Assembly (NCBI GenBank): GCA_013215055.1 | Contig: JABSRQ010000007.1 | Coordinates: forward strand, 62,001-126,000 | Reading direction: 5' to 3' | Length of the DNA stretch: 64,000 nt | From: Pseudomonadales bacterium | Lineage (GTDB): Bacteria; Pseudomonadota; Gammaproteobacteria; Pseudomonadales; DT-91 | Shown here: one piece after another, positions 12,534 to 62,947 of the stretch | Position numbering within the stretch: the first letter of the stretch is position 1 | How the letters are laid out: each line of letters opens with the position of its first letter | Program-made: the position numbers and the translations under genes | The notes under the pieces: generated by a model | Databases searched by the model: none | What the model was told of the DNA's origin: nothing | Seen by the model: only the letters and a program-made list of their open reading frames with translations

Positions 12534-12690
12534 ATGAGTCTGGTTGATGTTTTAAAAAAATTACAAGAAAAGAACATTTCAATCTCACTTGACGGTGATC
12601 AACTTAAGGTCAACGCCGCCAAAGGTGCGATGACCAAAGAGTTGATGCAGCTGCTAAAGCAAAACAAAGAGGCCTTATTAAGCTGGGCCA
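12534..12690 (+). other. NRPS: TubC-type N-terminal docking domain
   Basis: Residues ~1-52 begin LVDVLKKLQEKNISISLDGD and continue with a LKVNAAKGA strand and two helices (LMQLLKQNKEALLSWAK). This matches TubC docking domains, which receive a growing chain from an upstream synthetase. No such partner is encoded in the window. Confidence 0.7.
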
Positions 12691-15600: not shown

Positions 15601-18600
15601 CACAGGCTTTTGAATTTATGCCCGCACTGCCCATCAGTGCCAATGGTAAATTAAATAAAAAGGCGCTGCCTGAACCTAGTTTCTCCTTAGCCGGTGCCAA
15701 TGAATATATCGCTGCAAGAAATCCATTTGAACAAGCCATCGCAGATATCTGGGGCGACATTTTAAACCTGGAAAAAATCAGCGTTTTAGATAACTTCTTT
15801 GAAATCGGTGGTCACTCGTTATTAGCCACACGTGTTATTGCACAAATTCGCCAACGCTTTTCTATCGACATTCATCTACGCGAATTATTTGATAATCCAA
15901 GCATTGCCGAATTAGCCTTACAGGCACAGATGCTGCAAGGCCAGCAGCAAAACATGCCAAAACTGATTGCGATTACAGAGGCAGACAGACCAGAACGTTT
16001 ACCACTCTCTTTTGCCCAGCAACGCCTGTGGTTTATTGATCAGCTGTCTCCCAACACCTCCGTTTACAATATGCCCTTTGCAGTAAGGCTGCAGGGTGAT
16101 GTCAACATCACAGCCTTACTGCAAGCGTTTACTCAACTGGTACAGCGCCATGAAAGTTTACGCAGCCGTATCATCAGTGAAAAAGGCCAAGCCTGGCAGA
16201 TTGTTGATAAGCTCAAAGATGATGCCATATGTCCGTTCTATGAAGTTAACGATGATGAACAGGAGATTCTCAACCGAGCCAGCGAATTTTTATTAAAGCC
16301 GTTTAATCTTGCTGACGATAAGCTTATGCGTGCCGAATTATTATTACAGAAAAACAGCGGTGATTTTGTGTTATTGGTTTGCATGCATCACATCATCTCT
16401 GACGGCTGGTCTATGGATATTTTTATCCGCGATTTATTGACGCTTTATCAAGCCAATGATAAAAACCTGCCATCCCCGTTAAAACCCTTGGCCGTGCAAT
16501 ATGCCGACTATGCCATTTGGCAAAAGACCTACCTTAATGATGATGTATTAGGCAAACAAACCACCTATTGGAAGCAACAACTTGCCTATTGCGAGGTGTT
16601 AGAATTACCGATTGATTACCCTAGACCTGCTGTATTAGATAACCGCGGTGCTCAACATCACTTTAATCTACCACTTAAACTCAGCCAGCAACTGAGGCAA
16701 CTGAGCCAACAACAAGGCTGTAGCTTGTATATGACCTTGCTGGCCAGCTTTAAAATATTATTAGCCAAATATTGTAATCAAACCGATATCGCCATAGGCA
16801 GCCCGATTGCTAATCGCCCGGTCGCCGAACTGGAAGATATGATTGGCCTCTTTCTCAATACGCTGGTTTTACGCAGTCAGGTTGATGATCAGCAAAACTT
16901 TAATAGCTTTTTACACGATGTTAAAAATACCACGCTGGATGCCTACCAACATCAGGACCTGCCTTTTGAACTGTTGGTTGATGAATTAAACGTAAGCCGG
17001 GATACCAGCCAGACACCGTTATTCCAAGCGATGTTTATTTTACAAAGTTCATCTCAGGCAGGCTTCTCAGAGTTATCAAACTCAGAAGTTAACGGCATTA
17101 AACTCACCGCGCTGAATGAAAACAGCACGGAGCAAACCGCCAAATTTGATATCACGCTTAATATTATCGATACCGAAGCACAGTTATCGGCGGCCATTGA
17201 ATATCGAAGCAGCTTGTTTTCTCAGTCAAGCATGGCGCGTATGGCAGAACATTTAATCGGCCTATTGGAAACCATTGTTGATCAACCTCAGCAAAAAATC
17301 GCCGATATCAGTTTTGTTACCGAGGCCGAAATCCAGCAACAAATGGATTTTGAACACGGCTTAAATGCAACAGATCATCAATACCCACACGTTGATGCCT
17401 TACATTTATTGATTGAAAAACAGGTCGCTAAAACCCCCGAAGCCACCGCCATTATTTATGCCGATACTCAACTTACTTATCAACAGTTAAATCAACAAGC
17501 CAATTTATTAGCCCAGAAATTAATTCATAGTGGTCTTCAAATCGGCGAGCCGGTAGGTTTATGTGTATACCGCAGTGAAAAAATGTCTATCGCCTTATTG
17601 GCCATTTTAAAAGCCGGCGCTGCGTATGTGCCGTTTGATCCCGACTTCCCGTTAGAACGCTTAAACTTTATGGCCAAAGATACGGCCATCAAAGTATTAA
17701 TCACCGATGTCGATATAAAAAATCATCGCGACATCAATGTCAAAGAAACCATTTTGATGAGCGATGCTGCGCAATGGCAAGATTATAGTGATGCCAATAT
17801 CAATATTGAGTTTTCCAAAGACGCGCTATTTAATATCATCTACACCTCGGGTTCTACCGGCGTACCTAAGGGCGTTATGGTGCCCCACCAGGGCATCATT
17901 AATCGCCTGCAATGGATGCAGAAATTTTATCCACTAGGCACAGAAGATGTGGTTTTACAAAAAACCCCGTATAGCTTTGATGTATCGGTTTGGGAATTAT
18001 TCTGGCCGTTGATGCAGGGCAGCAGCTTGGTTTTTGCCGAAAGAGACGGACATAAAAACCCGCAATATCTAAGTGACATCATTCAACAACATCAAGTCAC
18101 CACCCTGCATTTTGTGCCCTCTATGTTAGGTATATTCTTGCAGCTGAAAGACATCAAAGATTGCAAAAGTATTAAGCAGGTATTCTGTTCCGGTGAAGCG
18201 TTACAGTTAGAACATGCACGCCAGTTTTATCAGCAACTGAAACAGGCCCAGTTACATAATTTATATGGGCCTACCGAAGCCTCTATCGATGTCTCCTTTT
18301 ACCACTGTGTAGAAAATGAGACACGGCGCAGCATTCCTATCGGAAAACCAATTCATAACACCCAACTGCATATTCTGGATTCATCGCTGAATATCGTGCC
18401 TACCGGTGTAGCAGGCGAACTGTATATCGGCGGCACAGGTTTGGCATTAGGTTATTTAAATCGCCATGATTTAACCCAGCAAACCTTTATCGAAAATCCG
18501 TATGCCAAAAGTCATGGCCATGCCAGCAAAAAACTCTATAAAACCGGCGATGTTGCTCGCTATTTAAGTGATGGTAATATCGAATACCTGGGCCGCACAG

Positions 18601-21600
18601 ATCATCAAATTAAAGTACGTGGCCAACGTATAGAGCTGGGAGAGATTGAATCCCGCCTACAACAGTTGGAACACGTTAGAGAAAGTATTGTGGTGGCTAA
18701 ATCACCCGATGGTGATCAAACTAATATGCAGCTGATTGCCTATTGCTTATTACCTAAAGGGCAGGAAGAATTAGATCACAATCAAATCAAGGCCAAGCTA
18801 AAACAAGATTTGCCCGATTACATGTTACCCAGCTATTTTATCAGCTTGGATAAATGGCCGTTATCTGCAAACGGAAAAATTAATCGCAAGGCCTTACCCG
18901 ATCCACAGTGGCATGAAAGCAGCCAAGTTTATATTGCTGCAGCAACCGATTTAGAAAAATCGTTAACAGCCATATGGTTAGATCTTTTAAAAGTTGAAAA
19001 AATCGGCATACAGGACAATTTCTTTGAGATCGGTGGCCATTCATTATTAGCCACCCGTTTAACCGCAGAGATTGCCAGTCAATTTGATATTGACTTAAAA
19101 GTCGCCAACATCTTTGACTCACCAACGATTCAATCGTTAGCCGAGTTTATCGAAAATACCGAACTGCACAGCAAAGCTTTACCTGCTATCACCCCGGTTT
19201 CTCGAGATCAAAACCTGCCGCTGTCATTTAATCAGCAGCGCCTTTGGTTCATCTATAAATTGCAGCCTACCGCAGCCAGCTACAATATTCCCACCGCACT
19301 TAAGCTCAACGGGCATCTTGATTTAAAGGCGTTTAATAAAGCGGTGGCCAGTATCTTCCAGCGCCATGAAATTTTACGCACCGTGATTGTTGAACAAGGT
19401 GATGAAGCCTATCAACAGGTTTTGGAAAGCATCGACAATGCTCTTAGCATAGAAACCTTAAACGAGGCGGATCAATTACAAGACATCATTGATGATGAAG
19501 CCAAACGCCCCTTTGATTTAAAAACCGCACCATTAATCCGTCTACGTCTTTTACAAAAAGAAAAGCAGCCTGAGAAAAATATTTTATTAGTCACCATGCA
19601 TCATATTATTTCCGATGCGGTGTCTCTTCAGAATATGGTGCAAGAATTAGCGATTGCCTATTACGGCTTCAAAGAACAAAAGCCACTAACACTGCCACCG
19701 TTAACCGTGCAATACGCCGATTATGCCTGGTGGCAAAACAATATCTTAGCCGGTGACTATTTAGATGAACAATTACACTACTGGCAGCAGCAATTAGCCG
19801 ACGCACCGGCCTTATTAAATCTGCCCACCGACAACATCAGGCCCGCACAACAAAGTAATCATGGTGCAATTTTTAATGCGCAGTTATCAGAAGCCACCGT
19901 TAATCGTGTACGTAGCTTTGCCAAACAAAACCACTACACCCCCTTTATGTTGTTGCTATCAGCCCAGCAATTATTATTGGGACGTTTAGCAGGGGATACG
20001 GACGTATGCATAGGTGTACCTATTGCCGGCAGGCATCAAAAAGGCACCGAAGATTTAATTGGTTTCTTTGTTAACGCACTTATCATCCGCAGCCGCTTTG
20101 ATCACAACCCCAGCGTTGCAGATTTTATTCACAGCGTTAAACAACAGGTGTTAGCAGGTTTTGCACATCAAGATGCACCTTTTGAACAAGTGATTGAACG
20201 CTGCAAGGTTAAACGCTCCAGCGCCTATAACCCGATAGCGCAGATCGGTTTTAATTATATCACCCAACAAAATCAGATTTTATCTCAGCTTTCCAATGAA
20301 CTAGCCGGCATCAGTATTGAAGCGATAGAACAACAAATCACCGATGCTAAATACGACATGATCTGGGCCTTCCAGGACACCTTAACAGATGCAGAAAATA
20401 CTTTTGGCAGCATTACGATCAACCTGGAATACAATACTGATTTATTTAATGCGACAACCGTGCAGCACTGGTTTGAACTGTATGAACAGCTAATCAACAA
20501 TATGTTAAGCGAGCTTGAAGCACCGGTATTAAAATTGGCTTTAAACAATCAAGACCAGCTTCTAAATTGCATCAAAGATAATCACGCCACCCCACAAGCC
20601 ATCGCCGAAGTGCGCCCACTCACAGCGATGCAACGTGACCTATATTTAGATACGGTATTAACACCGGATAATCGCCGCAACTATTTTGGTTGGATACACC
20701 GTATACAGCACACGTTAGATGTAGAGCTCTTTCAACAAGCTATCGATATCATCACCCGACAATTCAGCAGTTTTCGAATGCGACTTGTTGAACCCAATAA
20801 ACCATATTTAGAGTTAGCCTATGCGGCTATTATCGATAAAGACCATGCAGATTCAAAAATTCAGGTTCAGCATTTAGACTGGAGCCAGGATCAATTATCC
20901 AGCGCAGACTTTAATACACGCTGCAAAGAAGAGTTGGCGTTTAAACCTTATAAATTGGCTGATGAGCCACTTATTCGTTTTATAGCCATCAAAGAAACGG
21001 CCAATAGCTATGCCATTGTACTAACAGCACACCATAGTTGCATCGACGGCATCAGTTTACAAACCGTGACCGATGCTTATACCCACTCCTATGCAGCTCT
21101 ACTGAATAAAGAAGATGCCTCAGCCATTCAAGACAGCTTAGTTAAGGATAACTATGCTGCCTATGTACATCAGCAGAATTTGACGTGTGACAATGGCCCA
21201 AGCTACGAATTCTGGCAGCAACAAAGCCAGGGTGTAGAAGCATTAACCGCTGCAACTAAAGCGCTAAACAGCCAGGCGATTAAAGGCAATTATTTCTTTA
21301 AGGAATATTCCGATAGCGCCGAACATTACGCGGCAATACAGCAATATTGCAAAGATAATAACACCACCGCCTTCTTGTATATCAAGGCTCTGTATACGCT
21401 GATGTTGCAAAGCACTTGTTATGCCGATGAAAGCTTTTATTTCACCGACATCATCGCCGCCAGACCCAAAGGCCACATAGCTGAAACCGGCTGTTATTTT
21501 GAACAACGCCCTACCGTTATCGATGCTTCTGCCGTCGATAAAGAGGCAAGCTTTACCGAGTTATTAGACTATTTAAACCAACAACGCATCAAGGTTAGAG

Positions 21601-24600
21601 GTGATACACATATCTCTAATAGTTTACAAAATCGTGTATTCAGCCAATCCAATACGCAATTTATGTTTAACTTCTATCTTACCGAACGTTATCTGCCATT
21701 TTTAGATGGGCAATCGGAAACCACCTTCATCGTACCGGAAATGGATGATGCGGTAACATTCACGACCATTGTTGATGGTGATCATTTATTATTTAACTTC
21801 ACCTATACCGACAATGTTTTTACCGATAACAACTTTGTGCGACGTTTATTACATTTATCCCAGCAAGTCTTAGCAGGTAACAATCAACTTGCAGCACTTC
21901 AGTTACACCTGGCAGAAGAACCTATACCCCTAGCAACCGCGGCCTGTGAATATAATCATAGCAGCGTCATTAGCATGATAGAGGCACAAGCACACCGTAA
22001 CCCTAACGCTTGTGCGATTATCGACTGTGATGCCGGACTTGCTGAACAAACACTGAGCTATAGCGAACTAAACCAAAAATCTAACCAGCTGGCACATTAT
22101 CTACAGCAGGTTCAAGGCATTAAACAAGGTGATACCGTCGCGTTATGTCATGCGGCCAATAGCCAATTTATGATTGCTTTATTAGCCACATTAAAATGTG
22201 GCGCTGTATATATTCCGGTAGATATAAATTATCCGATTAAGCGCATCAACTATATTCTTGAAGATTCGTCAGCCCGTTGTATTCTCAGCGAATCAGGCAT
22301 GCAAGAAACCTTAAAGGATATTCAGGCAAATAAAGTCTATCTGGATTCCTTATCTGCAGAGATTCAAAAACACAAAACCGATAACTTAAATCTCACTATC
22401 GACATTGATGATCTACTGTATTTAATTTATACCTCTGGCTCTACCGGTTTACCCAAGGCTGCGATGGTAAAACAGCGTGGCGAGATCAACCTTATTCAAT
22501 GGTATATCAAAGAGTTTACTTTAAACGAAAGTGACAAGGTACTGATCAGCTCAGCCACCGGTTTTGATTTAACCCAGAAAAACCTGTTGGCATCTTTAAC
22601 GGCAGGGTCCAGCATCGTATTCCCTAATATGCAGGACTATGACCCACAACTATTATTAAACACGATACAGCAGCAAAAAATCACTTTAAGTAACTGTGCG
22701 CCTTCGGCCTTTTACCCGGTAGTAGAAGCTGCTGCAGATGAAAATAACAACTTCAAAAGTTTGAGTTCTTTACGCTTGATGTTATTTGGTGGTGAGGCTA
22801 TACGCATCAACAGCTTTATCGACTGGCTGCAATCTCCTTTAACGGGATGTCAGTTGGTGAATATGTATGGGCCAACCGAATGTACCGATATTGCCAGCTT
22901 TTATCGCATTGAAGAACCTGCCAACTTTATCAACACGGCTATTCCTATAGGCCTGGCTAATGACAACGTTCAACTTTTTATTGCCGATAGCAGCTTAAGA
23001 TTATTGCCTGCAGGTTTTTCAGGTGAATTATTAATTGGCGGTGAAGGTATCGGTGCCGGGTATTTAAATAATGAGGCTCTGACACAGACAAGTTTTATCA
23101 ACCACCCCATTGCAGGGCTTGTGTATAGAACCGGGGACCTGGTTCAGCTTCAACCCGATGGTAACTTTGTTTTTATTAATCGCATCGATCATCAGGTTAA
23201 AATACGTGGCCTACGTATAGAGCTGGGTGAAATTGAATACGCTTTAAAAGATTTGTCTGAAGTGATAGATAGCTTAGTTCTCGTTAACGAGGAAGAAAAA
23301 CTCTGCGCCTATGTATTAACTGATACCGGCAGTAAGCCTGAGAACTGGCGTCAAACTTTGGCTTTATCGCTTAGCGATTATATGATTCCACAGCAGCTTA
23401 TAGCTATGAAATCCTGGCCTCTGACCGCCAACGGCAAGATTGATAGGAAAGGCCTGCCCAAAGCTAATGATGAAGATCAAGCCCATAACACCGCGTATAT
23501 AGCGCCACGTAATGAGACCGAGCAGCAGCTTTTAACTATTTGGCAGGAAGTACTGGGCCAGGAAATTATCGGCGTTAACGATAATTTCTTTGATTTAGGT
23601 GGCCATTCATTATTGGCGGCAAAAGCCGTTACCCGTATACGGGAACACTTCCAGCAAGACTTACCATTGAGAGAAGTTTTCCTTTCCCCGACTATTGCGG
23701 CTATTGCCGAATTATTAGAACAAGGGTCTAACAGCGAAGAAAATAACAACTCACTTTTACCTATGATAGAACCCGCGAATCGTGATGTGTATCAGGGGCT
23801 TTATCCATTATCGTTCACCCAGCAACGCCTGTGGTTGATCGAACAAATTCAACAAGCCAGCAGCATGTACAATATTCCGCTGGCCTTAGAGCTAACAGGT
23901 GCTGTAAATCACTCGGCACTGAATGCTGCGCTGAGAGCGTTATATCAACGCCATGAATCGTTAAGAACACGTATTGTCATCAAAGATGGCAGCGCGTATC
24001 AGCAGGTTTCTAACGATGATCTCATTATTATCGAAAAAACCTCTGAGCAAGTAGACAGTCAAGTTCAAAGTTTTTTACAGCAGCCGTTCAGGCTGGAAAA
24101 TCAGGCATTATTTAAAGTTCAAATAATCCACTGCGCCAAAGATAAAACCGTTTTATTACTAAATAAACACCATATTATTTCCGATGGTTTATCTTCCAAT
24201 ATTCTGTTGCAAGACTTGGCCAGCTTTTACCAAGCTTATAGCAACCAGGAAAAATCTAACTTAGCAGAACTGCCTATACAATATATTGATTACAGCATCT
24301 GGCAAAAAGAACATTTAACTAACAGCGTTTTACAAACTCAAGTTGACTATTGGAGCGGTAATCTAAAACAAAGCCAGGTGCTAGATCTGCCTTTTGATTA
24401 TCCACGTTCAGCTAACAACAGCCTGCAAGGTAGCATCGTTGAGTTTAGCCTACCCGAGGCGACCTCTAAAAAACTAATCCAGCTGGCTAAACAAGAATCC
24501 GCAACGCCGTTTATGTTATTAATCACTGCCTATTATTTATTACTTAGCCGTTACAGCGGCCAATACGATATTAATATCGGTACGGCTGTGGCTAACAGGC

Positions 24601-27600
24601 CACAATCGGCGCTTGAAAACGTTATTGGCTTTTTTGTTAATACCTTAGTCATACGTACCGACATTGAGGCTTCAGAAAACCTGACATTTAAACAGCTTTT
24701 AACCCAAGTTAAACACGTTTGTAGCGAAGCCTATTCTCATCAAGACTTACCTTTTGAACGATTGTTAGATGATCTGGATATCGAAAGAGACTTATCTCAC
24801 TCACCTTTATTCCAGGCATTTTTCACCTTGCAAACGGCAGCTGAAATAAGCAGCCAGACCCTGGATATAAATGGCACTCAAATAAATGCTTATCAGGCCA
24901 ATAGCGTCAATTCTGGCAACATAAACACTGAAGCCAAATTTGAATTAAGCCTTAGCATGTTAGCGGTTGATGGAAAACTCTCAGGCAGTTTTGAATATCG
25001 TACCGCCTTATTTAAGCCTGAGACCATTCAACGGTTGGCTGAGCATTTTGTTGGACTTTTAAATGCTATTGCTGCAGATGCATGCGTTGATATTCATCAG
25101 CTAGACTTTATTTCTGATAACGAAAAAAATCAGTTGCTGAGCAAACTTAATAACGAGGTTATTGATACAGCCAATCAACAGAATGTTCATGCCTTATTTG
25201 AATCACAGGTAGAGACAACACCTGATGCCACAGCCGTTATTCATGGTGATGAAAAAATAACCTATCAACAAATAAATAATAAAATTAATCAACTGGCGGC
25301 CTATTTACAACAAGAGCTGGCGATAAAAAGCAATAGCCCCGTTGCGCTTTGCCTGGCACCCGGCATTGATTTTATCACCGCGGTATTCGCCGTTGTTAAA
25401 GCCGGCTGCAGCTATATCCCGCTAGATATCATGTATCCGGATGAACGCCTGAAATACATTATTGAAGATTCAGGCACAGGCATCGTGTTATGTAATCAAA
25501 CACAAAAAGACCGATTAACCGCACTGATACAAACGCATGATATAAATCTTATTAACATCTGTGCCGACAATAATACTATTGCCACACACAGCGTTGATAA
25601 CCCTGCCAATATCATCAGCCCAGATACGGCTATTTATAATATCTACACCTCAGGTTCAACCGGAAAACCCAAAGGGGTCACGGTTAAACACCAGGGTGAG
25701 AGTAATTTAATCGACTGGTATATTCACGAGTTTAACTTCTGTGCCCGCGATAGCTTTTTGATTGTCTCGGCTATAGGTTTTGATTTAACCCAGAAAAATT
25801 TCTTTGCACCGTTATGTAGTGGTGCTGCCATTGTATTCCCTGAAGACGTTTTGTTTGATCCTGAAAGAGTCAGAGCACTGATCAACAAAGAACAGATCAG
25901 TATTTTAAATTGCGCCCCTTCTGCGCTATATCCGCTTATCGACAACAAAGAATATTATGCCGAAATCCAAAGCCTACGCTGTGTTTTATTAGGTGGTGAA
26001 CCTATCCACACGGCTACTGTTAACACTTGGTTAAGCGCTACTGAGTTTAACTGTGAGTTGGTAAATATGTATGGTCCAACTGAGTGTACCGACATCAGTA
26101 CTATTTATAGAATACGCAGCCAGGCTGATTTAGAACATGCGGTTATTCCTATCGGCAAAGCCATTCGTGGCACACAGACACTGATTCTTGATGCCAACCT
26201 ACAATTGCAAGCTAAGGGCATTGTGGGTGAACTGTATATAAGCGGTGTGAGTTTATCGGCAGGTTACATCAATAACGATGCTGAAAACCAAAGCAGCTTT
26301 ATAGACAATCCCTTTGCCTCTGGCTTGATGTATAAAACTGGCGACTTGGTTAGATTAAAAAGCGACAATAATATTGAATATATCGGTAGAACAGATCATC
26401 AAGTAAAAATCCGAGGTCTGCGTATTGAGCTAGGTGAAATTGAACAACGCCTGGAAAACATCGATGGCATTGAAAAAGCGCTGGTACTGGCTGTCAATAC
26501 TGACGATGGAGAAGCAAGCCTTGTGGCCTATTATAGTTTCTCAGAAATTGGGCTGTTTATTGAGCCTAAAACACTTCGCCTGGCATTAGCCACACAGCTG
26601 GCCGATTATATGTTGCCGGCCTTCTATCAGCCTATGGATGCCTGGCCGCTTAATGCTAATGGTAAAATCGACAGGAAACAGCTACCGGAACCCAGATGGA
26701 AAAAATCTTCCCGCAGCGATATTGTTAAAGCTAAAAATGCGATTGAAAGGAAATGTGTCGCTATCTGGTTAGACGTTTTGAAACTGGAAGAAGTGTCGAC
26801 TCAAGATCATTTCTTTCAAATCGGAGGTCACTCGCTAAAAGCTGCACAGGTGGTAGCCGATTTACGCAAAGCCTTTGTTATCGATATCAGCTTACGTGAT
26901 ATGTTTGATGCCACCACCATCATTGATTTGGCACTGTTGATAGAGCAAAAACAACAGCAAGGTATGGTGATACCCTCCATCGAAAAAGCCGACAGATCTC
27001 AAACGCTGGTTTTATCCTATGCCCAGCAACGCTTATGGTTTTTGTCGCAACTCGATGCAAGCAGCCCAGCTTACAATATGCCAGCGGCTTTCCGATTAAA
27101 AGGCCAGATCAATACTCAGGCCCTGGAACAAGCTTTAAACAGCATTATTCAACGCCATGAAAGCTTACGCAGCAACTTTATCAAGGTTGAAGGTGAGCCG
27201 CAGTTAATCATTCATGCTGAACGTAAAATGTCTCTTCCCATTAAAAAGGTCGGTTCAGAAGCACAATTGCAGCAGTGCATCAATGACGATGCGAAAGAAA
27301 GCTTTAGCCTTGAAAGCGGCCCCTTGCTTCGCGCTAAATTAATCCAGATAAGCGCTAACGATCACTGCTTATTATTAAATATGCACCACATCATTTCTGA
27401 TGGTACATCGGTGCAAATATTAATTCGTGAGCTGGGCAGCTTATACCTTTCATATCTTAATGGGGTTGGTAATACCTTGCCCGAGCTGGATTTGCATTAT
27501 ACCGATTACGCCAACTGGCAACGACAGTGGCTTCAAGGCGATGTGTTAGATGAGCAAATCAACTTCTGGTCTCAGCAGCTTAGCGGTGCACCCACATTAT

Positions 27601-30600
27601 TACAGCTGCCATTAGACAGGCCACGCCCAAAGGTACAAAGCTTTAACGGCGGCGTTTATAAAACCGTTATCGATAGCGATTTAACCGAATCATTACGCCA
27701 GTTGTCCATGAATAATGGCTGCACGTTATTTATGACCTGCTTAGCTGCGTATCAAACCTTATTAACAAAATACAGCCACCAAAAAGACATCTGTGTAGGT
27801 ATTCCTTTAGCGGGTAGAAGCATTTCAGGTGTTGAAAACATTATTGGTTTCTTTATCAATGCGTTAATTATCCGTACTGATTTCAGCGCCAATTTATCGG
27901 TTCAGGAATTATTAGCCAATATTAAAAATACCACGCTAGCAGCTTTTGCACATGAGCATGTGCCTATAGAAATGCTACTGAATGAACTGGATGTAGAGCG
28001 TAACCTGTCTTTTACACCTTTGGCGCAATGTGCCTTTAATATGTTATCCGCCAGCGATGATGTTTTACCTGAAGGTATCAACGACATCCTGGGTGATTTA
28101 AATATCGAGTTAATGGAAGCCGATACCGTCGTCTCCAAGTTTGATCTGCAGATGAACCTGTTGGACATTCAGGAACAAGGTGAATCAAAACTTAGCCTCA
28201 GCATGGAATACAATAGCGATATATTTGATGAAAGCACCATCAGCACGATGATGACTTTCTATATCGAGATGTTAAAAACATTTACAGAGGCTCCAGAAAC
28301 AACATTAGAAAATATCACTTTAGGGCAGTTTAATCTGCCGACACAGTATGAAAAAGCCTTACCACTCACAGCCATGCAACGGGATATTTACTTGGCTACA
28401 CTGGCTCAGCCCGACACATTAGAAAACAGTTTGGGTTATGCATGGGATGCACCTATCGCTGTTGATGAAGCGTTATGGGAACAAACTTTAATCGACATCA
28501 GCGGCTTATTTGATGTGCTGCGGGCTGACCTTATTCAGAACGATGTGCCGTATCAAGATATTGCCTACCTGGCGGTTAAACCAGTTTCTCAACATCAGAT
28601 CGATTTTGAATTATTAGATTGGACTGAAGAAAAATTAAGTGAAGATGCGTTGCAGCAACGCATCAAAGACTTTGTGGTTAAACCTTATGATTTAGAATCT
28701 GACAGCGGTATTAGCTATCGACTGATTAAAATCAAAGAAGACCATTATTGGGCAACCTGTGCATCACACCATTTATATCTGGATGGTTTTGCAGGTGCGA
28801 TTCATATTGCGTTATTTGCGGCACGTTATGAACAGCTTTATAAAGGTAAACAAGATTTCCCTGAAAAAGACGCCAAGGCGCTTTCGCTTCATTTTGATGA
28901 GTTCAAGATGGAAGATCACTTCCCTGATTATCTACAACAAAGCCGTGCCGAATTTGACAGTATAGAAACGCTGGAATATTGGCGCAATAAATTACAGCAG
29001 TGTGAAGGTTTGCAACTATCCAGCCCGATCATTTTTGAGCCATCATCAGATAATGACAATGGCGAAGCCAAGCTTATTTCACAGGAGATTCCGGTTGAAC
29101 ACTACAAGGCGGTCAAGAAATATTGCCGCCAATTCGCCATCACTCCACCGCTTTATTTTAAGTGTTTATATGCATTATTAATTCAACAATATACCCGTGC
29201 TAACGCCGACTTTGTCTTAACCGAATTTAATGCGGGAAGAAACAAATTCAATAAAGGCAGCATAGGTTGTTTTTATCATACTCAGCCTTTCTGCTTTACT
29301 GCAGAAAGCCTCAGCAATACGCTGGAAGATTTATTTAAATCCAGTAAAAAACATCAGAAAGCCAGCCGTAAACATCTTCAAATATCCAACTTAATGTTGC
29401 GTCAACTGCTGCCAGAATCGGGTGTCTATTTTTCTTATAACTATCTGATGATGCCACATCATACATATATGCTGGATCAGTATTTTACCGGTAATCGTTA
29501 CACTCCTAATGCCACCGGCATGGTTGATTTACGGGTACAGGCCGACGGTGATGAATTGTGTTTATGGCTTGCTTATAACAGCAGCATATTTACTGACCAT
29601 CAGTTCCTGCAGCGTTTATTATCGCTCAGCGAACAATTGCTAGGCGGTGATATTGAACATACTCAACAATTACAATTTATATTGCCAGAGGAAGAAAATA
29701 GCAACACTAATATCAGTAATTATGATATCGATAAAATAGCGCATCAGCTTAAACCTGCAACGGTGCAGCAGCAGTTAGTGCATAATCGTATCAGCTCACA
29801 GGTCATAAAAACGCCAGAAGCAACTGCGGTGAACTGTGCAGATAAAAGCCTTACATACAGCCAATTAGAGCGATACAGTAATGCCTTGGCCAACCAGCTT
29901 ATAGAGCAAGGTCTGCATAGCGGTGATAAAATCGCGATTGTATTAGATAGGTCTATAGAGCTGATCATTGCCATCTTGGCCAGCATCAAAGCGGGGGCTT
30001 GTTATATCCCGTTAGATACAGCCTATCCCGATGAGCGCCTGCAATATATTGTTAATGATGCCCAAGCCCAATTCATTATTGTGCATAATCAACAACAAGC
30101 TAGATTCGAAAATTCATCGGCGCAGCTTATTAATATCGATAACATTAATTTTGAATCAAACACATCACAAACCCCACAGGTGGATATCAACGGCGATGAT
30201 CTGCTGTATATGATTTACACCTCGGGCTCAACAGGCCAACCTAAAGGTGCTTCGGTTTATCATAAAAGCGAAAGCAATCTTTTAAATTGGTATTGTGATG
30301 AATTTGATTTTAATCATACGGATAAAACCCTGATCATCTCCGCCACGGGTTTTGATTTAACCCAAAAGAACTTCTTTGCGCTGTTAACCGTAGGCGGCAC
30401 GGTGGTCTTACCAACGGGTAATGATTTTGATGTCAACAACATCATCAATACCATTAACACGCAGCAGATCAGCCAAATCAACTGCGCACCTTCGGCCTTC
30501 TATGCTTTATTAGAAAGCGCTGAAAACTTATCGCTCTTTAACAGCCTTAAAAATGTCTTTTTTGGTGGTGAGCCAATTCAAATTAAACGTCTACGCAACT

Positions 30601-32351
30601 GGATAGAATCGGATAATTACAGCACTAACATTATTAATATGTATGGCCCTACAGAATGTACAGATATCAGTACTTTCCATACAGTGACCGCAGATGATGC
30701 CAAGAGATTACTGCAAGAGCCTTTACATAATGAAATACCGTTAGGTAAGGCCAATGCAGGTATTAAGCTTTATGTGCTGAATGATCAGTTGCAGAAAGTA
30801 CCGGATGGTTTAGCCGGCGAGCTGTGCATAGCAGGTATTAGCGTAGGGGCAGGTTATTGGAAAAAGCCTGAGTTAAGCCAAGACGTCTTTGTTGTTAATC
30901 CTTATTCAAATACCGAACACGATAAGGTGCTTTATCGCACCGGTGATTTGGTTAGGATACAAGATTCCAAGCTTTATTATATTGGCCGTAAAGACTTCCA
31001 AATAAAGCTGCGTGGTTTACGTATTGAATTGGGTGAAATTGAACAACAGATCAAAGCCTTGCCGGGTCTGATGGATTGTCAGGTCATGCTAGACAATGAC
31101 CAGCTTCTGGCTTTTGGCCTAACACAGGAAAAAAGCATCGATAACTGGCGTGAAATTTTAGCCCAGCAATTACCCGAGTATATGCTACCGGCGCAACTGA
31201 TTTGCATCAAACAATGGCCATTAACGCCTAACGGGAAAATAGACCGGAAAATGCTATTACAGCTGGAACGCCAAACAAGCGATACACAAGTAAGCTTTAT
31301 TGCACCACGTACCGATATGGAAAAAAATCTGGCGACGTTGTGGCAGGAAGTTCTGGGCCTGGGCGAAATTGGTGTACACGAAAACTTCTTTGAAGCAGGT
31401 GGAGATTCGTTATCGGCTGTGCGTTTAATTGCCCGAATAGAATTACGTTTTGAAGTGAAGCTGGCCGTTGCCTCTTTATTTGGTGCGCAAACCATCGCAC
31501 AGCTGGCCCATGTCATTCACAATCAAACGGATGACTGGTCACCGATAGTACCGATTCAGCCTCAAGGCAATAAAACCCCACTATTTGCCGTACATGCTTT
31601 AGGCGCAATGGTATTGAGCTATGAACCTCTGGCCAGAACACTTGGCAAAGATCAGCCGTTTTATGGCATTCAAGCCTATGGCTTTGAAGATGAACAAACG
31701 CCGTTTACCGATATGGATGAAATGGTGACATTTTATGTTGATGCAATAAAACAAACTCAAGCGCAAGGCCCTTATCAGATTATAGGCCATAGCTTTGGTG
31801 GATTAATCGCATTGGAAATTGCCAAGCAATTGATAAACCGCGGCGATAAGGTCCAATACCTTGGATTAATAGACACCTATAAACCCGTGAAATATGTCAA
31901 TATGCCATTGGATGATGCTTTTATTCTGAAAACTTTTGCCGAGCATAATTTTGGTGTAGTGGATATTCCTCTTAATGCTTTAAGGGTCATGAAGCCTGAA
32001 CTTATGATTACAAAGGTTGCGGATAAATTTAACGGTATCGTCAGTGAAGATTTTATTCGTGCGGCTATCAATGTCATACGTGGCTTCCAGCGCATGACGA
32101 TGAATTACAAAGCCAAGCCTGTTGACCTGCCTATACATTTGTATAGACCACAAGATTCATTGGATAACCTTAAAGGAAAAATCAAGAAATTGGTGCTTAG
32201 AGGTAATGCAGATAATCTAGGCTGGCATAAAGTGACAGAAAATTTAACTGTGAGTAAAGTTGAGGGGGATCATCATAGCTTGTTAAACGTGGATAATGTG
32301 GCCTCTATTGCTAAACAGCTACAACAACAGCTAAATGATTTATCGAACTAA
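12534..32351 (+). CDS. Giant five-module nonribosomal peptide synthetase
   Basis: A 6605-residue NRPS that would build a peptide on carrier-protein thioesters in the cytoplasm. Domain order by motif: TubC-type docking (1-52); C1 (HHIITDG, H207), A1 (YTSGSTG, Y691), T1 (S1095); C2 (H1285), A2 (Y1770), T2 (S2170); C3 (H2356), C*1 (H2833), A3 (Y3299), T3 (S3692); C5 (H3879), A4 (Y4371), T4 (S4767); C6 (H4951), C*2 (H5412), A5 (Y5895), T5 (S6292); TE (S6420, D6447, H6580/6581). There is no epimerisation, methylation, heterocyclisation or reductase domain. It is flanked by unrelated genes, so any partner enzymes are elsewhere. Release is by thioesterase, possibly as a cyclic product. The product is unknown. 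Confidence 0.97.
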   Translation: MSLVDVLKKLQEKNISISLDGDQLKVNAAKGAMTKELMQLLKQNKEALLSWAKQQQNKADNSKPIPQRDNNKPLKLSFSQQRLWFVEQLAPGNATYNVPAAIVLTGSLNTDILQQVLNTLIQRHEALRTSFIDNDGDAEQIIHNAVHMPIQVEHCDYALADKDALLALAADELLKPFDLSQAPLFRVRVLKLRSEEQDQHLLLLNLHHIITDGWSNGILLQEIAQCYAAISQHKIPSLPDVQVQYADYAQWQQEQLSVEQLQEKTLWWKEQLADVAILELPIDHSRPAQKSGRGGLLKFQGDEKISQGMATLTSHQGCTAFIGLLSAYQVLLNRLTGQSDICIGTPSANRHRPEVQNTLGFFVNTLALRTKLTDSLNFNELLALSNKVFIDANDHQDVPFESIVDSLGLSREMSSTAIFQTMISYQKGELQKSFALEHLNIEALEVETHTAKFDLTLGILETDAGYAFSFEYDSDIFSAATIQSFADYYLQLLENIIQQPANNIHQLDILSSAQKQQLIQQGQGPVTNYPKAVNLAHQVEQWAIKTPDAIAAEFDQLKISYQQLDQQASQFAHQLKDSGFCRGDILALTLQRSPEMLIAILAAVKAGGIYLPIDPNYPDDRIKYMLEDSQAKSIICDASQLIRLKGLLKNSTLASRLIDLDQLQQEAASRSRQWKTEPDNNQGQDGAYLMYTSGSTGQPKGVLIPQAGVSRLAVNTNMCTTTSSSRIAHVSNVAFDAAALEIWTALLNGACLVGIKQDDLLDGQRFGEIIQEKDISFLLLTVALFNVFVSENPAIFANIDYLFAGGEAVDIHKINAVLAAKNSHGEPAAPKHLINAYGPTENSCISSFYEITETQTRQVPIGSAISNSSCYILDAFDQLCPPGISGELCTAGDGLAIGYLNKPEQTAAAFITHPFKANEKLYRTGDICRWNTQGEIDILGRIDEQIKLRGFRIELDEINRHLGLVEGIKEAAVVVRDTGHQYLAAYIVAEGIDSSSDDKEAALQFIQKIKTVLGAQLPHYMVPQAFEFMPALPISANGKLNKKALPEPSFSLAGANEYIAARNPFEQAIADIWGDILNLEKISVLDNFFEIGGHSLLATRVIAQIRQRFSIDIHLRELFDNPSIAELALQAQMLQGQQQNMPKLIAITEADRPERLPLSFAQQRLWFIDQLSPNTSVYNMPFAVRLQGDVNITALLQAFTQLVQRHESLRSRIISEKGQAWQIVDKLKDDAICPFYEVNDDEQEILNRASEFLLKPFNLADDKLMRAELLLQKNSGDFVLLVCMHHIISDGWSMDIFIRDLLTLYQANDKNLPSPLKPLAVQYADYAIWQKTYLNDDVLGKQTTYWKQQLAYCEVLELPIDYPRPAVLDNRGAQHHFNLPLKLSQQLRQLSQQQGCSLYMTLLASFKILLAKYCNQTDIAIGSPIANRPVAELEDMIGLFLNTLVLRSQVDDQQNFNSFLHDVKNTTLDAYQHQDLPFELLVDELNVSRDTSQTPLFQAMFILQSSSQAGFSELSNSEVNGIKLTALNENSTEQTAKFDITLNIIDTEAQLSAAIEYRSSLFSQSSMARMAEHLIGLLETIVDQPQQKIADISFVTEAEIQQQMDFEHGLNATDHQYPHVDALHLLIEKQVAKTPEATAIIYADTQLTYQQLNQQANLLAQKLIHSGLQIGEPVGLCVYRSEKMSIALLAILKAGAAYVPFDPDFPLERLNFMAKDTAIKVLITDVDIKNHRDINVKETILMSDAAQWQDYSDANINIEFSKDALFNIIYTSGSTGVPKGVMVPHQGIINRLQWMQKFYPLGTEDVVLQKTPYSFDVSVWELFWPLMQGSSLVFAERDGHKNPQYLSDIIQQHQVTTLHFVPSMLGIFLQLKDIKDCKSIKQVFCSGEALQLEHARQFYQQLKQAQLHNLYGPTEASIDVSFYHCVENETRRSIPIGKPIHNTQLHILDSSLNIVPTGVAGELYIGGTGLALGYLNRHDLTQQTFIENPYAKSHGHASKKLYKTGDVARYLSDGNIEYLGRTDHQIKVRGQRIELGEIESRLQQLEHVRESIVVAKSPDGDQTNMQLIAYCLLPKGQEELDHNQIKAKLKQDLPDYMLPSYFISLDKWPLSANGKINRKALPDPQWHESSQVYIAAATDLEKSLTAIWLDLLKVEKIGIQDNFFEIGGHSLLATRLTAEIASQFDIDLKVANIFDSPTIQSLAEFIENTELHSKALPAITPVSRDQNLPLSFNQQRLWFIYKLQPTAASYNIPTALKLNGHLDLKAFNKAVASIFQRHEILRTVIVEQGDEAYQQVLESIDNALSIETLNEADQLQDIIDDEAKRPFDLKTAPLIRLRLLQKEKQPEKNILLVTMHHIISDAVSLQNMVQELAIAYYGFKEQKPLTLPPLTVQYADYAWWQNNILAGDYLDEQLHYWQQQLADAPALLNLPTDNIRPAQQSNHGAIFNAQLSEATVNRVRSFAKQNHYTPFMLLLSAQQLLLGRLAGDTDVCIGVPIAGRHQKGTEDLIGFFVNALIIRSRFDHNPSVADFIHSVKQQVLAGFAHQDAPFEQVIERCKVKRSSAYNPIAQIGFNYITQQNQILSQLSNELAGISIEAIEQQITDAKYDMIWAFQDTLTDAENTFGSITINLEYNTDLFNATTVQHWFELYEQLINNMLSELEAPVLKLALNNQDQLLNCIKDNHATPQAIAEVRPLTAMQRDLYLDTVLTPDNRRNYFGWIHRIQHTLDVELFQQAIDIITRQFSSFRMRLVEPNKPYLELAYAAIIDKDHADSKIQVQHLDWSQDQLSSADFNTRCKEELAFKPYKLADEPLIRFIAIKETANSYAIVLTAHHSCIDGISLQTVTDAYTHSYAALLNKEDASAIQDSLVKDNYAAYVHQQNLTCDNGPSYEFWQQQSQGVEALTAATKALNSQAIKGNYFFKEYSDSAEHYAAIQQYCKDNNTTAFLYIKALYTLMLQSTCYADESFYFTDIIAARPKGHIAETGCYFEQRPTVIDASAVDKEASFTELLDYLNQQRIKVRGDTHISNSLQNRVFSQSNTQFMFNFYLTERYLPFLDGQSETTFIVPEMDDAVTFTTIVDGDHLLFNFTYTDNVFTDNNFVRRLLHLSQQVLAGNNQLAALQLHLAEEPIPLATAACEYNHSSVISMIEAQAHRNPNACAIIDCDAGLAEQTLSYSELNQKSNQLAHYLQQVQGIKQGDTVALCHAANSQFMIALLATLKCGAVYIPVDINYPIKRINYILEDSSARCILSESGMQETLKDIQANKVYLDSLSAEIQKHKTDNLNLTIDIDDLLYLIYTSGSTGLPKAAMVKQRGEINLIQWYIKEFTLNESDKVLISSATGFDLTQKNLLASLTAGSSIVFPNMQDYDPQLLLNTIQQQKITLSNCAPSAFYPVVEAAADENNNFKSLSSLRLMLFGGEAIRINSFIDWLQSPLTGCQLVNMYGPTECTDIASFYRIEEPANFINTAIPIGLANDNVQLFIADSSLRLLPAGFSGELLIGGEGIGAGYLNNEALTQTSFINHPIAGLVYRTGDLVQLQPDGNFVFINRIDHQVKIRGLRIELGEIEYALKDLSEVIDSLVLVNEEEKLCAYVLTDTGSKPENWRQTLALSLSDYMIPQQLIAMKSWPLTANGKIDRKGLPKANDEDQAHNTAYIAPRNETEQQLLTIWQEVLGQEIIGVNDNFFDLGGHSLLAAKAVTRIREHFQQDLPLREVFLSPTIAAIAELLEQGSNSEENNNSLLPMIEPANRDVYQGLYPLSFTQQRLWLIEQIQQASSMYNIPLALELTGAVNHSALNAALRALYQRHESLRTRIVIKDGSAYQQVSNDDLIIIEKTSEQVDSQVQSFLQQPFRLENQALFKVQIIHCAKDKTVLLLNKHHIISDGLSSNILLQDLASFYQAYSNQEKSNLAELPIQYIDYSIWQKEHLTNSVLQTQVDYWSGNLKQSQVLDLPFDYPRSANNSLQGSIVEFSLPEATSKKLIQLAKQESATPFMLLITAYYLLLSRYSGQYDINIGTAVANRPQSALENVIGFFVNTLVIRTDIEASENLTFKQLLTQVKHVCSEAYSHQDLPFERLLDDLDIERDLSHSPLFQAFFTLQTAAEISSQTLDINGTQINAYQANSVNSGNINTEAKFELSLSMLAVDGKLSGSFEYRTALFKPETIQRLAEHFVGLLNAIAADACVDIHQLDFISDNEKNQLLSKLNNEVIDTANQQNVHALFESQVETTPDATAVIHGDEKITYQQINNKINQLAAYLQQELAIKSNSPVALCLAPGIDFITAVFAVVKAGCSYIPLDIMYPDERLKYIIEDSGTGIVLCNQTQKDRLTALIQTHDINLINICADNNTIATHSVDNPANIISPDTAIYNIYTSGSTGKPKGVTVKHQGESNLIDWYIHEFNFCARDSFLIVSAIGFDLTQKNFFAPLCSGAAIVFPEDVLFDPERVRALINKEQISILNCAPSALYPLIDNKEYYAEIQSLRCVLLGGEPIHTATVNTWLSATEFNCELVNMYGPTECTDISTIYRIRSQADLEHAVIPIGKAIRGTQTLILDANLQLQAKGIVGELYISGVSLSAGYINNDAENQSSFIDNPFASGLMYKTGDLVRLKSDNNIEYIGRTDHQVKIRGLRIELGEIEQRLENIDGIEKALVLAVNTDDGEASLVAYYSFSEIGLFIEPKTLRLALATQLADYMLPAFYQPMDAWPLNANGKIDRKQLPEPRWKKSSRSDIVKAKNAIERKCVAIWLDVLKLEEVSTQDHFFQIGGHSLKAAQVVADLRKAFVIDISLRDMFDATTIIDLALLIEQKQQQGMVIPSIEKADRSQTLVLSYAQQRLWFLSQLDASSPAYNMPAAFRLKGQINTQALEQALNSIIQRHESLRSNFIKVEGEPQLIIHAERKMSLPIKKVGSEAQLQQCINDDAKESFSLESGPLLRAKLIQISANDHCLLLNMHHIISDGTSVQILIRELGSLYLSYLNGVGNTLPELDLHYTDYANWQRQWLQGDVLDEQINFWSQQLSGAPTLLQLPLDRPRPKVQSFNGGVYKTVIDSDLTESLRQLSMNNGCTLFMTCLAAYQTLLTKYSHQKDICVGIPLAGRSISGVENIIGFFINALIIRTDFSANLSVQELLANIKNTTLAAFAHEHVPIEMLLNELDVERNLSFTPLAQCAFNMLSASDDVLPEGINDILGDLNIELMEADTVVSKFDLQMNLLDIQEQGESKLSLSMEYNSDIFDESTISTMMTFYIEMLKTFTEAPETTLENITLGQFNLPTQYEKALPLTAMQRDIYLATLAQPDTLENSLGYAWDAPIAVDEALWEQTLIDISGLFDVLRADLIQNDVPYQDIAYLAVKPVSQHQIDFELLDWTEEKLSEDALQQRIKDFVVKPYDLESDSGISYRLIKIKEDHYWATCASHHLYLDGFAGAIHIALFAARYEQLYKGKQDFPEKDAKALSLHFDEFKMEDHFPDYLQQSRAEFDSIETLEYWRNKLQQCEGLQLSSPIIFEPSSDNDNGEAKLISQEIPVEHYKAVKKYCRQFAITPPLYFKCLYALLIQQYTRANADFVLTEFNAGRNKFNKGSIGCFYHTQPFCFTAESLSNTLEDLFKSSKKHQKASRKHLQISNLMLRQLLPESGVYFSYNYLMMPHHTYMLDQYFTGNRYTPNATGMVDLRVQADGDELCLWLAYNSSIFTDHQFLQRLLSLSEQLLGGDIEHTQQLQFILPEEENSNTNISNYDIDKIAHQLKPATVQQQLVHNRISSQVIKTPEATAVNCADKSLTYSQLERYSNALANQLIEQGLHSGDKIAIVLDRSIELIIAILASIKAGACYIPLDTAYPDERLQYIVNDAQAQFIIVHNQQQARFENSSAQLINIDNINFESNTSQTPQVDINGDDLLYMIYTSGSTGQPKGASVYHKSESNLLNWYCDEFDFNHTDKTLIISATGFDLTQKNFFALLTVGGTVVLPTGNDFDVNNIINTINTQQISQINCAPSAFYALLESAENLSLFNSLKNVFFGGEPIQIKRLRNWIESDNYSTNIINMYGPTECTDISTFHTVTADDAKRLLQEPLHNEIPLGKANAGIKLYVLNDQLQKVPDGLAGELCIAGISVGAGYWKKPELSQDVFVVNPYSNTEHDKVLYRTGDLVRIQDSKLYYIGRKDFQIKLRGLRIELGEIEQQIKALPGLMDCQVMLDNDQLLAFGLTQEKSIDNWREILAQQLPEYMLPAQLICIKQWPLTPNGKIDRKMLLQLERQTSDTQVSFIAPRTDMEKNLATLWQEVLGLGEIGVHENFFEAGGDSLSAVRLIARIELRFEVKLAVASLFGAQTIAQLAHVIHNQTDDWSPIVPIQPQGNKTPLFAVHALGAMVLSYEPLARTLGKDQPFYGIQAYGFEDEQTPFTDMDEMVTFYVDAIKQTQAQGPYQIIGHSFGGLIALEIAKQLINRGDKVQYLGLIDTYKPVKYVNMPLDDAFILKTFAEHNFGVVDIPLNALRVMKPELMITKVADKFNGIVSEDFIRAAINVIRGFQRMTMNYKAKPVDLPIHLYRPQDSLDNLKGKIKKLVLRGNADNLGWHKVTENLTVSKVEGDHHSLLNVDNVASIAKQLQQQLNDLSN
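12741..15930 (+). other. NRPS module 1: C1-A1-T1
   Basis: C1 has an intact HHIITDG (H207-G213). A1 pocket residues aligned by eye to GrsA-PheA read D, A, L, L, F, G, A, C, I, suggesting a hydrophobic amino acid; I cannot name it. T1 carries FFEIGGHSLL with the phosphopantetheine Ser1095. C1 follows the docking domain, so it may condense an upstream chain or an acyl starter. Confidence 0.8.
15999..19150 (+). other. NRPS module 2: C2-A2-T2, predicted serine
   Basis: C2 has HHIISDG (H1285). A2 pocket residues by eye are D, V, W, H, F, S, L, I, D, within one residue of known serine codes such as DVWHLSLID of EntF. T2 carries FFEIGGHSLL with Ser2170. This is the most confident substrate call in the enzyme. 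Confidence 0.85.
19200..23714 (+). other. NRPS module 3: C3-C*1-A3-T3 with tandem condensation domains
   Basis: C3 (H2356) has HHIISDA: the usual Gly of HHxxxDG is Ala. After a ~40-residue linker a second condensation-superfamily domain, C*1 (about residues 2690-3125), begins PLTAMQRDLYL and contains HHSCIDG (H2833). No A or T domain separates them. The A3 pocket reads D, L, K, N, L, G, M, D, I; its core motif has PKA where PKG is usual. T3 has FFDLGGHSLL with Ser3692. Confidence 0.85.
23790..26940 (+). other. NRPS module 4: C5-A4-T4
   Basis: A conventional module: C with HHIISDG (H3879), an A domain with pocket D, L, K, N, L, G, M, D, I (identical by eye to A3) and a T domain FFQIGGHSLK (Ser4767). 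There is no tandem C* here, although the same substrate pocket is used. Confidence 0.85.
26970..31515 (+). other. NRPS module 5: C6-C*2-A5-T5 with tandem condensation domains
   Basis: C6 has HHIISDG (H4951). C*2 (from about residue 5270) begins PLTAMQRDIYL, is a clear paralogue of C*1 and keeps HHLYLDG (H5412). The A5 pocket reads D, L, K, N, F, G, M, D, I. T5 has FFEAGGDSLSA (Ser6292), the GGDS form often found before a thioesterase. Confidence 0.85.
31540..32351 (+). other. NRPS thioesterase domain
   Basis: Alpha/beta-hydrolase type I thioesterase, about 265 residues. The nucleophile is Ser6420 in GHSFGG. A candidate acid is Asp6447 (LGLIDTYKP) and the base is one of the histidines in GDHHSLL (6580-6581). 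It would release the peptide by hydrolysis or cyclisation. Confidence 0.88.
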
Positions 32352-51727: not shown

Positions 51728-51775
51728 CAGGCATTCCAAATGGTGAATATGTCTTTCGGTTTGGGATAAAAACAA

Positions 51776-61816: not shown

Positions 61817-62947
61817 TTATTCTTGCTCTAATAAGCGATTAACACGTTCCAGCGAATCAACATACTCGGTCAATAAACGTTGCATAACGTGTTTAACCGT
61901 TTCTACTTCATTGATTTGGCCAACCACTTGACCCACCGGGTTAAACCCAACTTTTTGACACTCACCAACACCTGCATATTTTTTTGTTCTGCGCATAGCA
62001 TCAAAAGTGATCATGCCTTGTAAGGGCATGGGTAAATAACCGGGTGAGTCTTTTTCTTCCCAGGCATCGGTCCAGACATTTTTTAACATACGCCCTGGTT
62101 TGCCGGTGAATGAACGTGAACGCACAGTGTCTTCTTCTGTCGCATCAAAATACGATTGTTTTTCGGCAGGTTCAGCCTCAGCCTCTTCCACCGCCAACCA
62201 TAATGAACCGGTCCAAACCCCTGCTGCACCCACTGACATAGCAGCTAACATTTGGCGGCCATTGCCTATTCCGCCTGCGGCTAAAACCGGGGTTGGATAA
62301 ACCGCATCAATCACTTGTGGCCATAAAACAATCGAGCCGACATCACCGGTATGACCTCCCCCTTCCGTGCCTTGGGCGATGATAATATCGACACCGGCTG
62401 CTTTATGTTTAAGTGCATGTTTAACCCGGCCACAGAGCGCTGCAACTAAACGGCCACTGTCATGAATCTGTTTAATAATTTCAACGGGGGGGGTGCCTAA
62501 TGCATTGGCAATAAGCGTAACATTGGGGCGTTTTAACGCTTCCTCTAAAAGCGGGCGGGCAGTCTCTTCAGTCCAACCTAATAATCCACCTTTAGGGCCT
62601 GAATCATCGGGAAAAGCCGGCACGCCATGATCTTTTAATAGTTTTTCAGCAAAGTCGCGATTTTCTTGGGGAATCATCGCCTCCAAGTTTGCCAGCATCG
62701 TATCGGCATCAACATCATCCATACCTTCATATTTGGATGGAATAACAATATCCACTCCATAAGGGTAGTCGCCAATATGGGCATCGATCCAATCCAGCTC
62801 TTCACGTAATTGCTCTACGGTAAAACCCACAGCACCTAATACACCTAAGCCCCCGGCTTTAGATACTTCAACCACCACATCTCGGCAATGGGTAAAAGCA
62901 AAAACAGGCACATCAATTTTTAGTTTTTTACAAATTTCAGTTTTCAT
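61817..62947 (-). CDS. Nitronate monooxygenase-like flavoprotein
   Basis: A 376-residue TIM-barrel FMN enzyme of the 2-nitropropane dioxygenase family. It begins EICKKLKIDVPVFAFTHCRD and has the C-terminal FMN-binding stretch AAGGIGNGRQMLAAMSVGAA followed by GVWTGSLWLA. Family members oxidise nitronates or serve other flavin reactions; the family is often mis-assigned, so the reaction is tentative. Its ATG overlaps the stop of the acyl-CoA synthetase gene by four bases, indicating an operon, a pairing I have seen in acyl or steroid catabolism contexts. Confidence 0.88.
   Translation of the reverse strand: MKTEICKKLKIDVPVFAFTHCRDVVVEVSKAGGLGVLGAVGFTVEQLREELDWIDAHIGDYPYGVDIVIPSKYEGMDDVDADTMLANLEAMIPQENRDFAEKLLKDHGVPAFPDDSGPKGGLLGWTEETARPLLEEALKRPNVTLIANALGTPPVEIIKQIHDSGRLVAALCGRVKHALKHKAAGVDIIIAQGTEGGGHTGDVGSIVLWPQVIDAVYPTPVLAAGGIGNGRQMLAAMSVGAAGVWTGSLWLAVEEAEAEPAEKQSYFDATEEDTVRSRSFTGKPGRMLKNVWTDAWEEKDSPGYLPMPLQGMITFDAMRRTKKYAGVGECQKVGFNPVGQVVGQINEVETVKHVMQRLLTEYVDSLERVNRLLEQE

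Follow-up and report, generated by a model that had tools for sequence, protein, structure and literature searches.

A nonribosomal peptide synthetase (NRPS) encoded in the window (the whole stretch of 64,000 nucleotides analysed here) contains two modules in which an ordinary condensation domain (C) is directly followed by a second, divergent one (C*), and the adenylation domain (A) of both modules carries a homoserine-type code. Coherent and open to testing, these paired C-C* modules are unusual, more so than the adenylation pocket itself. To judge from the sequence, the whole is best explained if C* is an acyl-transferring domain that would put a second acyl group on homoserine, most likely on the side-chain oxygen, a reading that we consider evenly poised between right and wrong.

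The NRPS occupies one open reading frame of 6605 amino acids (positions 12534..32351, forward strand, as are all domains given below). ORF, motif, alignment, profile and Pfam parsing gave the layout TubC_N-C-A-T-C-A-T-C-C*-A-T-C-A-T-C-C*-A-T-TE, where T denotes carrier and TE thioesterase domains; A codes were read by alignment, the carriers T1, T2 and T4 were found by motif search, and C2 to C5 and T3 came from profile parsing, with alignment in addition for C3. A TubC_N docking domain (12546..12686; PF18563, 40.3 bits) precedes the first module, made up of the ordinary C1 (12753..14066; scoring 518 bits against the C profile and 101 against that of C*), A1 (14037..15752) and T1 (GGHSLLA at 15807..15827). 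The A1 code, DALLFGACIK, comes from the smaller of two alignments, position 278 being a gap in the larger one. The second module combines ordinary C2 (15999..17321), A2 (17289..18980; DVWHFSLIDK, serine type) and T2 (GGHSLLA at 19032..19052). In the third, ordinary C3 (19215..20546; HHIISDA) stands ahead of C*3 (20610..21920), A3 (21852..23543) and T3 (23478..23690), while the fourth has C4 (23802..25115), an ordinary C without a C* behind it, A4 (25083..26771) and T4 (GGHSLKA at 26823..26843). The tandem arrangement returns in the fifth module with ordinary C5 (27006..28322), C*5 (28359..29699), A5 (29649..31343) and T5 (31329..31514; PF00550), and the protein closes with a C-terminal thioesterase domain (31578..32330; PF00975, 103.8 bits; GHSFG at 31785). 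The A-domain core motif YTSGSTG occurs at nucleotides 14604, 17841, 22428, 25644 and 30216.

Alignment gave the homoserine-type codes DLKNLGMDIK for A3 and A4 and DLKNFGMDIK for A5. The sequence-only reading had picked out by eye the code DLKN-L/F-GMDI between 22428 and 30700 and was correct on both counts: the third YTSGSTG lies exactly at 22428, and the YGPTE motif of A5 at 30639 falls inside the far end. Profile parsing also agreed that two of the three A domains are preceded by C* (A3 and A5, not A4), and the three similar residues of an uncommon amino acid that had been proposed are borne out by homoserine-type codes. A likeness to the threonine code at N278, G301 and M322 had been pointed out rightly, M322 being as in that code. 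Threonine as a reading of the pocket was rejected; in the published passages threonine codes are DFWN, and K239 and D330, proposed in the same reading as a possible charge pair, belong to the homoserine code.

The view of the pocket as one without precedent did not survive, since DLKN-x-G-[ST]-D-V-K has already been published as a homoserine code. A passage on the laxaphycin family (PMC7524897) states that DLKNFGSDVK was assigned to homoserine by an earlier antiSMASH version, the peptide of that pathway being one that contains homoserine, and a passage of an A-domain signature survey (PMC12283262) lists homoserine or its lactone as the substrate of DLKNVGSDVK and DLKNLGTDVK. With the laxaphycin-family and other homoserine or homoserine-lactone A domains, A3-A5 share K517 and the core D235, L236, K239, N278, G301 and D330 of the published codes. 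A correct alignment, the sequence-only reading had added, might yield a common, known code: the code is largely a known one, but it is rare, and A3-A5 depart from the published strings with M322 (S or T published) and I331 (V published), the nearest string being 8/10 identical. Across related lines, position 322 is mostly S, T, N, H or M and 331 is V or I, and because the DLKN-G-D core stays constant while these two positions vary, we read A3-A5 as homoserine domains. The pocket is not a product of chance, being common to three paralogous domains, occurring in the same order (Ser-Hse*-Hse-Hse*) in orthologous lines of two other genomes of the genus (G002 and G004), and sharing its DLKN core with dozens of A domains from related lines. 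By its sequence the pocket is a variant of the known homoserine code, and the window NRPS would probably build a chain with three homoserines. Another unusual A code, DPRH-x-[GS]-[FVC]-Q-x-K, recurred in the C*-bearing loci L054, L059, L066, L099, L105, L051 and L068.

C*3 and C*5 scored 87.5 and 77.2 bits with PF00668, against 321-390 for the five ordinary C domains and a cut-off of 30.6; with both copies above the cut-off and a C-domain fold in the model of C*5, C* belongs to the PF00668 superfamily. Profiles built here gave 438 bits (C* profile) and 84 bits (C profile) for C*3, and 503 and 84 bits for C*5. When C*3 was used as the query in 95 relatives and in 369 genomes of the class, its strong matches were split from the rest in one search (1.7e-43 versus 7e-12), and in the other some partial copies lay between. 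The locus set was made up of 40 stretches surrounding some of the strong matches and 46 loci from one genome-collection scan, and was parsed with the same profiles. Among its 126 near-complete C* domains (duplicates included), scores ran from 223 to 563 bits against the C* profile and from 44 to 146 against the C profile. A midpoint-rooted FastTree phylogeny of 338 non-duplicate domains joined all 112/112 C* in one clade with support of 1.0, and gave the front C domains, those ahead of C*, no clade of their own.

The catalytic motif HHxxxDG is intact in both window copies (HHSCIDG in C*3, HHLYLDG in C*5). Among C* domains the second His was kept in 111/112, the Asp in 112/112, the first His in 94/112 and the whole motif in 87/112, compared with 223/226 for the first His and 185/226 for the whole motif in other C domains. 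Both His and the Asp were present in 106/106 C domains ahead of C*, in which DA replaced DG in 24/106 cases (5/120 in other C). A Trp following the motif, found in 167/226 other C domains, was present in 0/112 C*. Because nearly all front C and C* retain the second His and the Asp, both look active by sequence. Two further arrangements were seen in the parsed loci: a C-C*-T module in which no A was recognised between C* and T (L041 on C4 of G002 and L127 on C56 of G004), and, in L099, L105, L106, L107 and L055, an initiating C*-A followed by a very divergent C-like stretch (81-99 bits) and then a C at 187-328 bits, some cut by the locus end, which makes another odd C pair.

An AlphaFold2 model of C*5 (mean pLDDT 90.5, pTM 0.89) adopted the condensation-domain fold. 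A fold search with this model placed the starter domain RzmA-Cs with C8-CoA (7c1l) first among the matches listed, tied with others (Z 33.7; rmsd 3.3 over 405 residues at 16% identity), and since the Z values of starter and elongating C domains tie, the ranking gives no subtype for C*. According to a passage of PMC7804268, the acyl chain of the RzmA starter is flanked by helix alpha-5 and the sheet and comes close to residues 136, 138, 143 and 148. Position 138 (RzmA-Cs numbering) was small in 79/103 tandem C* and 9/9 N-terminal C*, and in about 17/226 other C; position 148 was small in 35% of tandem C* versus 4-12% of other C; and position 143 was bulkier in C*, being mostly L, M or F where other C have mostly S or A. 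This pattern fits a remodelled donor pocket in C* while not proving an acyl donor.

We then compared the A domains that follow the two kinds of condensation domain, C* in the parsed loci being found mostly in C-C*-A modules. A domains were deduplicated on identical central stretches, matches of at most 300 amino acids were dropped, and a readable context was required, which placed outside both counts six A domains behind C* cut by the locus end (five Hse, one Dab), nine behind N-terminal C* and 18 with no readable domain in front. We assigned Dab, Orn, Lys and Gly by codes that we take to be theirs. Thr and Ser were assigned from such codes together with a passage of PMC12283262. Codes for residues with a side-chain hydroxyl or amine made up 93/95 after C-C* and 50/112 after ordinary C (Fisher p=7e-19, optimistic, like the other p-values given here, because the sequences are related). 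After tandem C-C* there were 74 Hse, 8 Dab, 4 Thr, 4 Ser, 2 Orn, 1 Lys and 2 others; after ordinary C there were 23 Hse, 15 Ser, 10 Thr, 2 Dab and 62 others. The ordinary-C set is a background drawn from the same lines, as every locus was picked for holding C*, and the DLKN code was common there as well (23/112). The two tandem modules of 95 without a clear side-chain nucleophile had the codes DILQLGVIWK (Gly-type) and DVFSLALIHK.

The bias persisted after dereplication at 75% identity (82/84 after C-C* versus 44/100 after C) and among non-Hse residues alone (17/19 versus 23/79, p=2e-6). Shuffling the C* labels within loci reached a maximum of 78 in 20000 trials, against the observed 82 (p=5e-5). 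A later set of 20 further stretches came from the same families and partly overlapped the earlier loci, 11/54 of its A domains being already in the first set; over all 54, 26/26 tandem contexts followed the bias and 12/20 ordinary ones did, and after dereplication at 75% identity, both within the later set and against the first one, the figures were 14/14 and 6/9 (p=0.047). Two cut C* in this set stood before an aliphatic-type code and Hse, respectively.

C* also heads some assembly lines. Nine C* of the first set were at a protein N terminus, three before Ser or Thr and six before codes without a side-chain nucleophile (DAFxLG[IG]VFK and DLIxIGITLK), which we take to be aliphatic; the later set added two, one before an aliphatic-type code and one before Hse. 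In these six of the nine, C* would have to act on an alpha-amine with an outside donor. In L055/L097, L099, L105, L106 and L107, an NRPS with a tail of thioesterase size (about 300-330 amino acids) is followed by an MFS gene and then by the N-terminal C*; the tail in L055/L097 contains a match to GHSLG, and the pattern had no match in the other four (L099, L105, L106, L107). Among the NRPS genes of L090, the one that comes first encodes a C*-A-T protein.

At E 1e-40 or better, C* was present in 29/390 genomes of the order, the window genome included, and in the window genome alone within a sample of 398 genomes of the phylum. The 46 scan loci are mostly metagenome bins or draft genomes (Gammaproteobacteria, Pseudomonadales, Methylococcales, Moraxellaceae, Ketobacter, the BD1-7 clade and the like), with single records labelled Fluviicola, Acidobacteria and Deltaproteobacteria and weaker ones labelled Mesorhizobium, Taibaiella, Rudaea and Xanthomonas. 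Plasmid records gave 16 weak matches, with 19-25% identity among the 12 matches listed.

The window genome (G000) contains a second such NRPS line at C450:20000-41200 (L035, L129). It comprises two plain DLKN modules and a C-C*-A module whose code starts DLK before the locus end truncates it; directly upstream of the line, a weak AMP-ligase-like match shares a frame with a terminal carrier domain, perhaps as a fatty acyl-AMP ligase with a fused carrier. The orthologous lines of G002 and G004 adjoin two further one-module NRPS genes. An ortholog of the first, with the layout TubC_N-C-A-T and a Ser-type code, lies on C428 of the window genome (L128:1274-4696), about 15-19 kb before the window start and about 28 kb upstream of the window NRPS, with other genes between; the second was not seen between these two NRPS genes. 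Recurrent neighbours that could be identified (at least three locus groups, flanks partly fetched) were an MFS transporter, TE, MMPL, chemotaxis, GGDEF, LysR and Ig-like proteins. The MFS transporter gene, beside or between C*-bearing NRPS genes in 11 loci (e.g. L137:3823-5226, L106:8502-9881), perhaps encodes an exporter of the products. A protein of 566-668 amino acids whose start reads as a multi-pass membrane protein occurs near C* lines (L130:11913-13652, L136:4433-6436, L038:3530-5251, L125:5711-7408, L082:376-2208); it had no Pfam match in the two copies scanned and no NCBIfam match under E 0.05 in the five scanned, and it could be either unrelated or a partner of the C* lines. A cytochrome P450 gene lies at 50336-51775 on the reverse strand of the window, about 18 kb downstream of the NRPS, and a homolog with 43% identity is found near the G004 line (L123).

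We propose that A3, A4 and A5 would activate L-homoserine and that C3 and C5 would make normal peptide bonds, while the homoserine on the carrier would gain a second acyl group through C*3 and C*5, the side-chain oxygen being the likeliest site and an acyl-CoA or an acyl carrier the likeliest donor. The A3 and A5 positions would thereby become O-acyl-homoserine and the A4 position plain homoserine, and the peptide released by the thioesterase domain would be branched and multi-tailed, with X-Ser-Hse(acyl)-Hse-Hse(acyl) at its end. Given two domains that both look active and a residue that nearly always offers two nucleophiles, the simplest account is that the residue behind C-C* would be acylated twice, by C with the upstream peptide and by C* with the second group. 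As for a donor, no free acyl carrier was found on the contig, all of its carrier domains lying in two NRPS frames, and free carrier domains are present elsewhere in the window genome. No acyl-AMP ligase was seen near the window NRPS; an AMP-ligase-like ORF lies 30 kb from it, at 62944-63999.

The closest precedent for C* is the icosalide synthetase of Burkholderia gladioli, whose embedded starter domain we take to be likewise a second C directly behind an elongating C in one module. There the added beta-hydroxyacyl group supplies the next nucleophile, so that no nucleophilic side chain would be needed. C*, which stands directly behind an elongating C in the 95 tandem A contexts, C3-C*3 and C5-C*5 of the window NRPS among them, is likened to it by position and description rather than by sequence, and shares with this type a place at the head of assembly lines. 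It differs in being tied to nucleophilic side chains, mostly homoserine, and in having two copies in the window gene. The nearly constant presence of such a side chain, which the icosalide route would not require, points to its use here.

The two acyl groups could be placed the other way round, with C* acylating the alpha-amine and the front C joining the upstream peptide to the side-chain hydroxyl or amine, giving a backbone that runs through homoserine esters and bears N-acyl tails. We hold this to be unlikely, if deserving of some weight. It accords with the need of N-terminal C* for an alpha-amine before residues such as that of DAFxLGIVFK, with a passage of PMC8949500 in which the icosalide embedded starter acylates the following Ser, and with the more frequent DA for DG in front C domains, yet it obliges an ordinary-looking front C, with no clade of its own, to use a side-chain nucleophile. 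Side-chain acylation by C* is itself weakened by the small residue at 148 in only part of the tandem C*, the bulky 143, the Ser, Thr or Hse behind some N-terminal C*, the loss of the first His in some C*, the two exceptional tandem codes and the failure of the fold ranking to separate starter from elongating C. We nevertheless prefer it to an alpha-acylating C* with the chain growing on through the side chain.

A C* that condenses nothing and acts as a platform, like a siderophore interface or X domain, recruiting an enzyme such as a hydroxylase or acyltransferase to the carrier-bound homoserine, is improbable in our view. Its position beside A domains of one residue type would suit that role, and the recurrent membrane protein, found in five groups of C* loci, makes a partner possible. 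The siderophore interface domain is, like C*, an extra C-family domain in its module, and is marked by a lost HHxxxDG motif, whereas C* keeps the catalytic His and Asp and the window genome lacks a match to TauD-type hydroxylases (PF02668, E 0.001, in the whole genome at 84.7% completeness, with a positive E. coli control). These two findings disfavour a platform and led us to reject a beta-hydroxyaspartate/interface-domain reading of C-C*-A; no obvious modifying enzyme appeared among the identified recurrent neighbours either, in flanks that were partly fetched. Interface domains are reportedly treated by Reitz et al. 2019, as cited in a passage of PMC12230676, and a passage on antiSMASH 8 mentions new profiles for them and for siderophore beta-hydroxylases. 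Least credible of all, and very improbable, is a redundant or degenerate duplicate with no separate role: divergence from ordinary C, low PF00668 scores and occasional loss of the first His would agree with decay, against which stand the nearly invariant second His and Asp, the single clade across several families and the strong residue bias.

In the titles and abstract openings of the open-licence PMC papers listed, nothing described tandem C modules that act on homoserine, which does not prove their absence elsewhere, and passages of PMC10212144 and PMC11446937 contained nothing on such a module. Turnercyclamycin was considered as a possible known product, and the passages on it showed no link to homoserine residues or C*.

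While the pocket is already known in kind, as a variant of the homoserine code, a homoserine reading of DLKN-x-G-x-D-[VI], where position 322 may be M, N, H, S or T, widens a code with few published strings. Beyond the window, C* may be a dedicated side-chain-acylating clade, such that the C-C*-A modules of a set of gammaproteobacterial families would make multi-tailed peptides with O-acyl-homoserine, and with acylated Dab, Ser or Thr, directly on the assembly line and not by tailoring enzymes, a generalisation that we advance tentatively, at slightly under even confidence. If C* does acylate side chains, a tandem C-C*-A would be a readable signal for branched, multi-acylated peptides, C* would be a portable part for placing acyl groups on chosen residues, and O-acyl-homoserine peptides would become predictable from the genomes of bacteria mostly known from metagenome bins alone.
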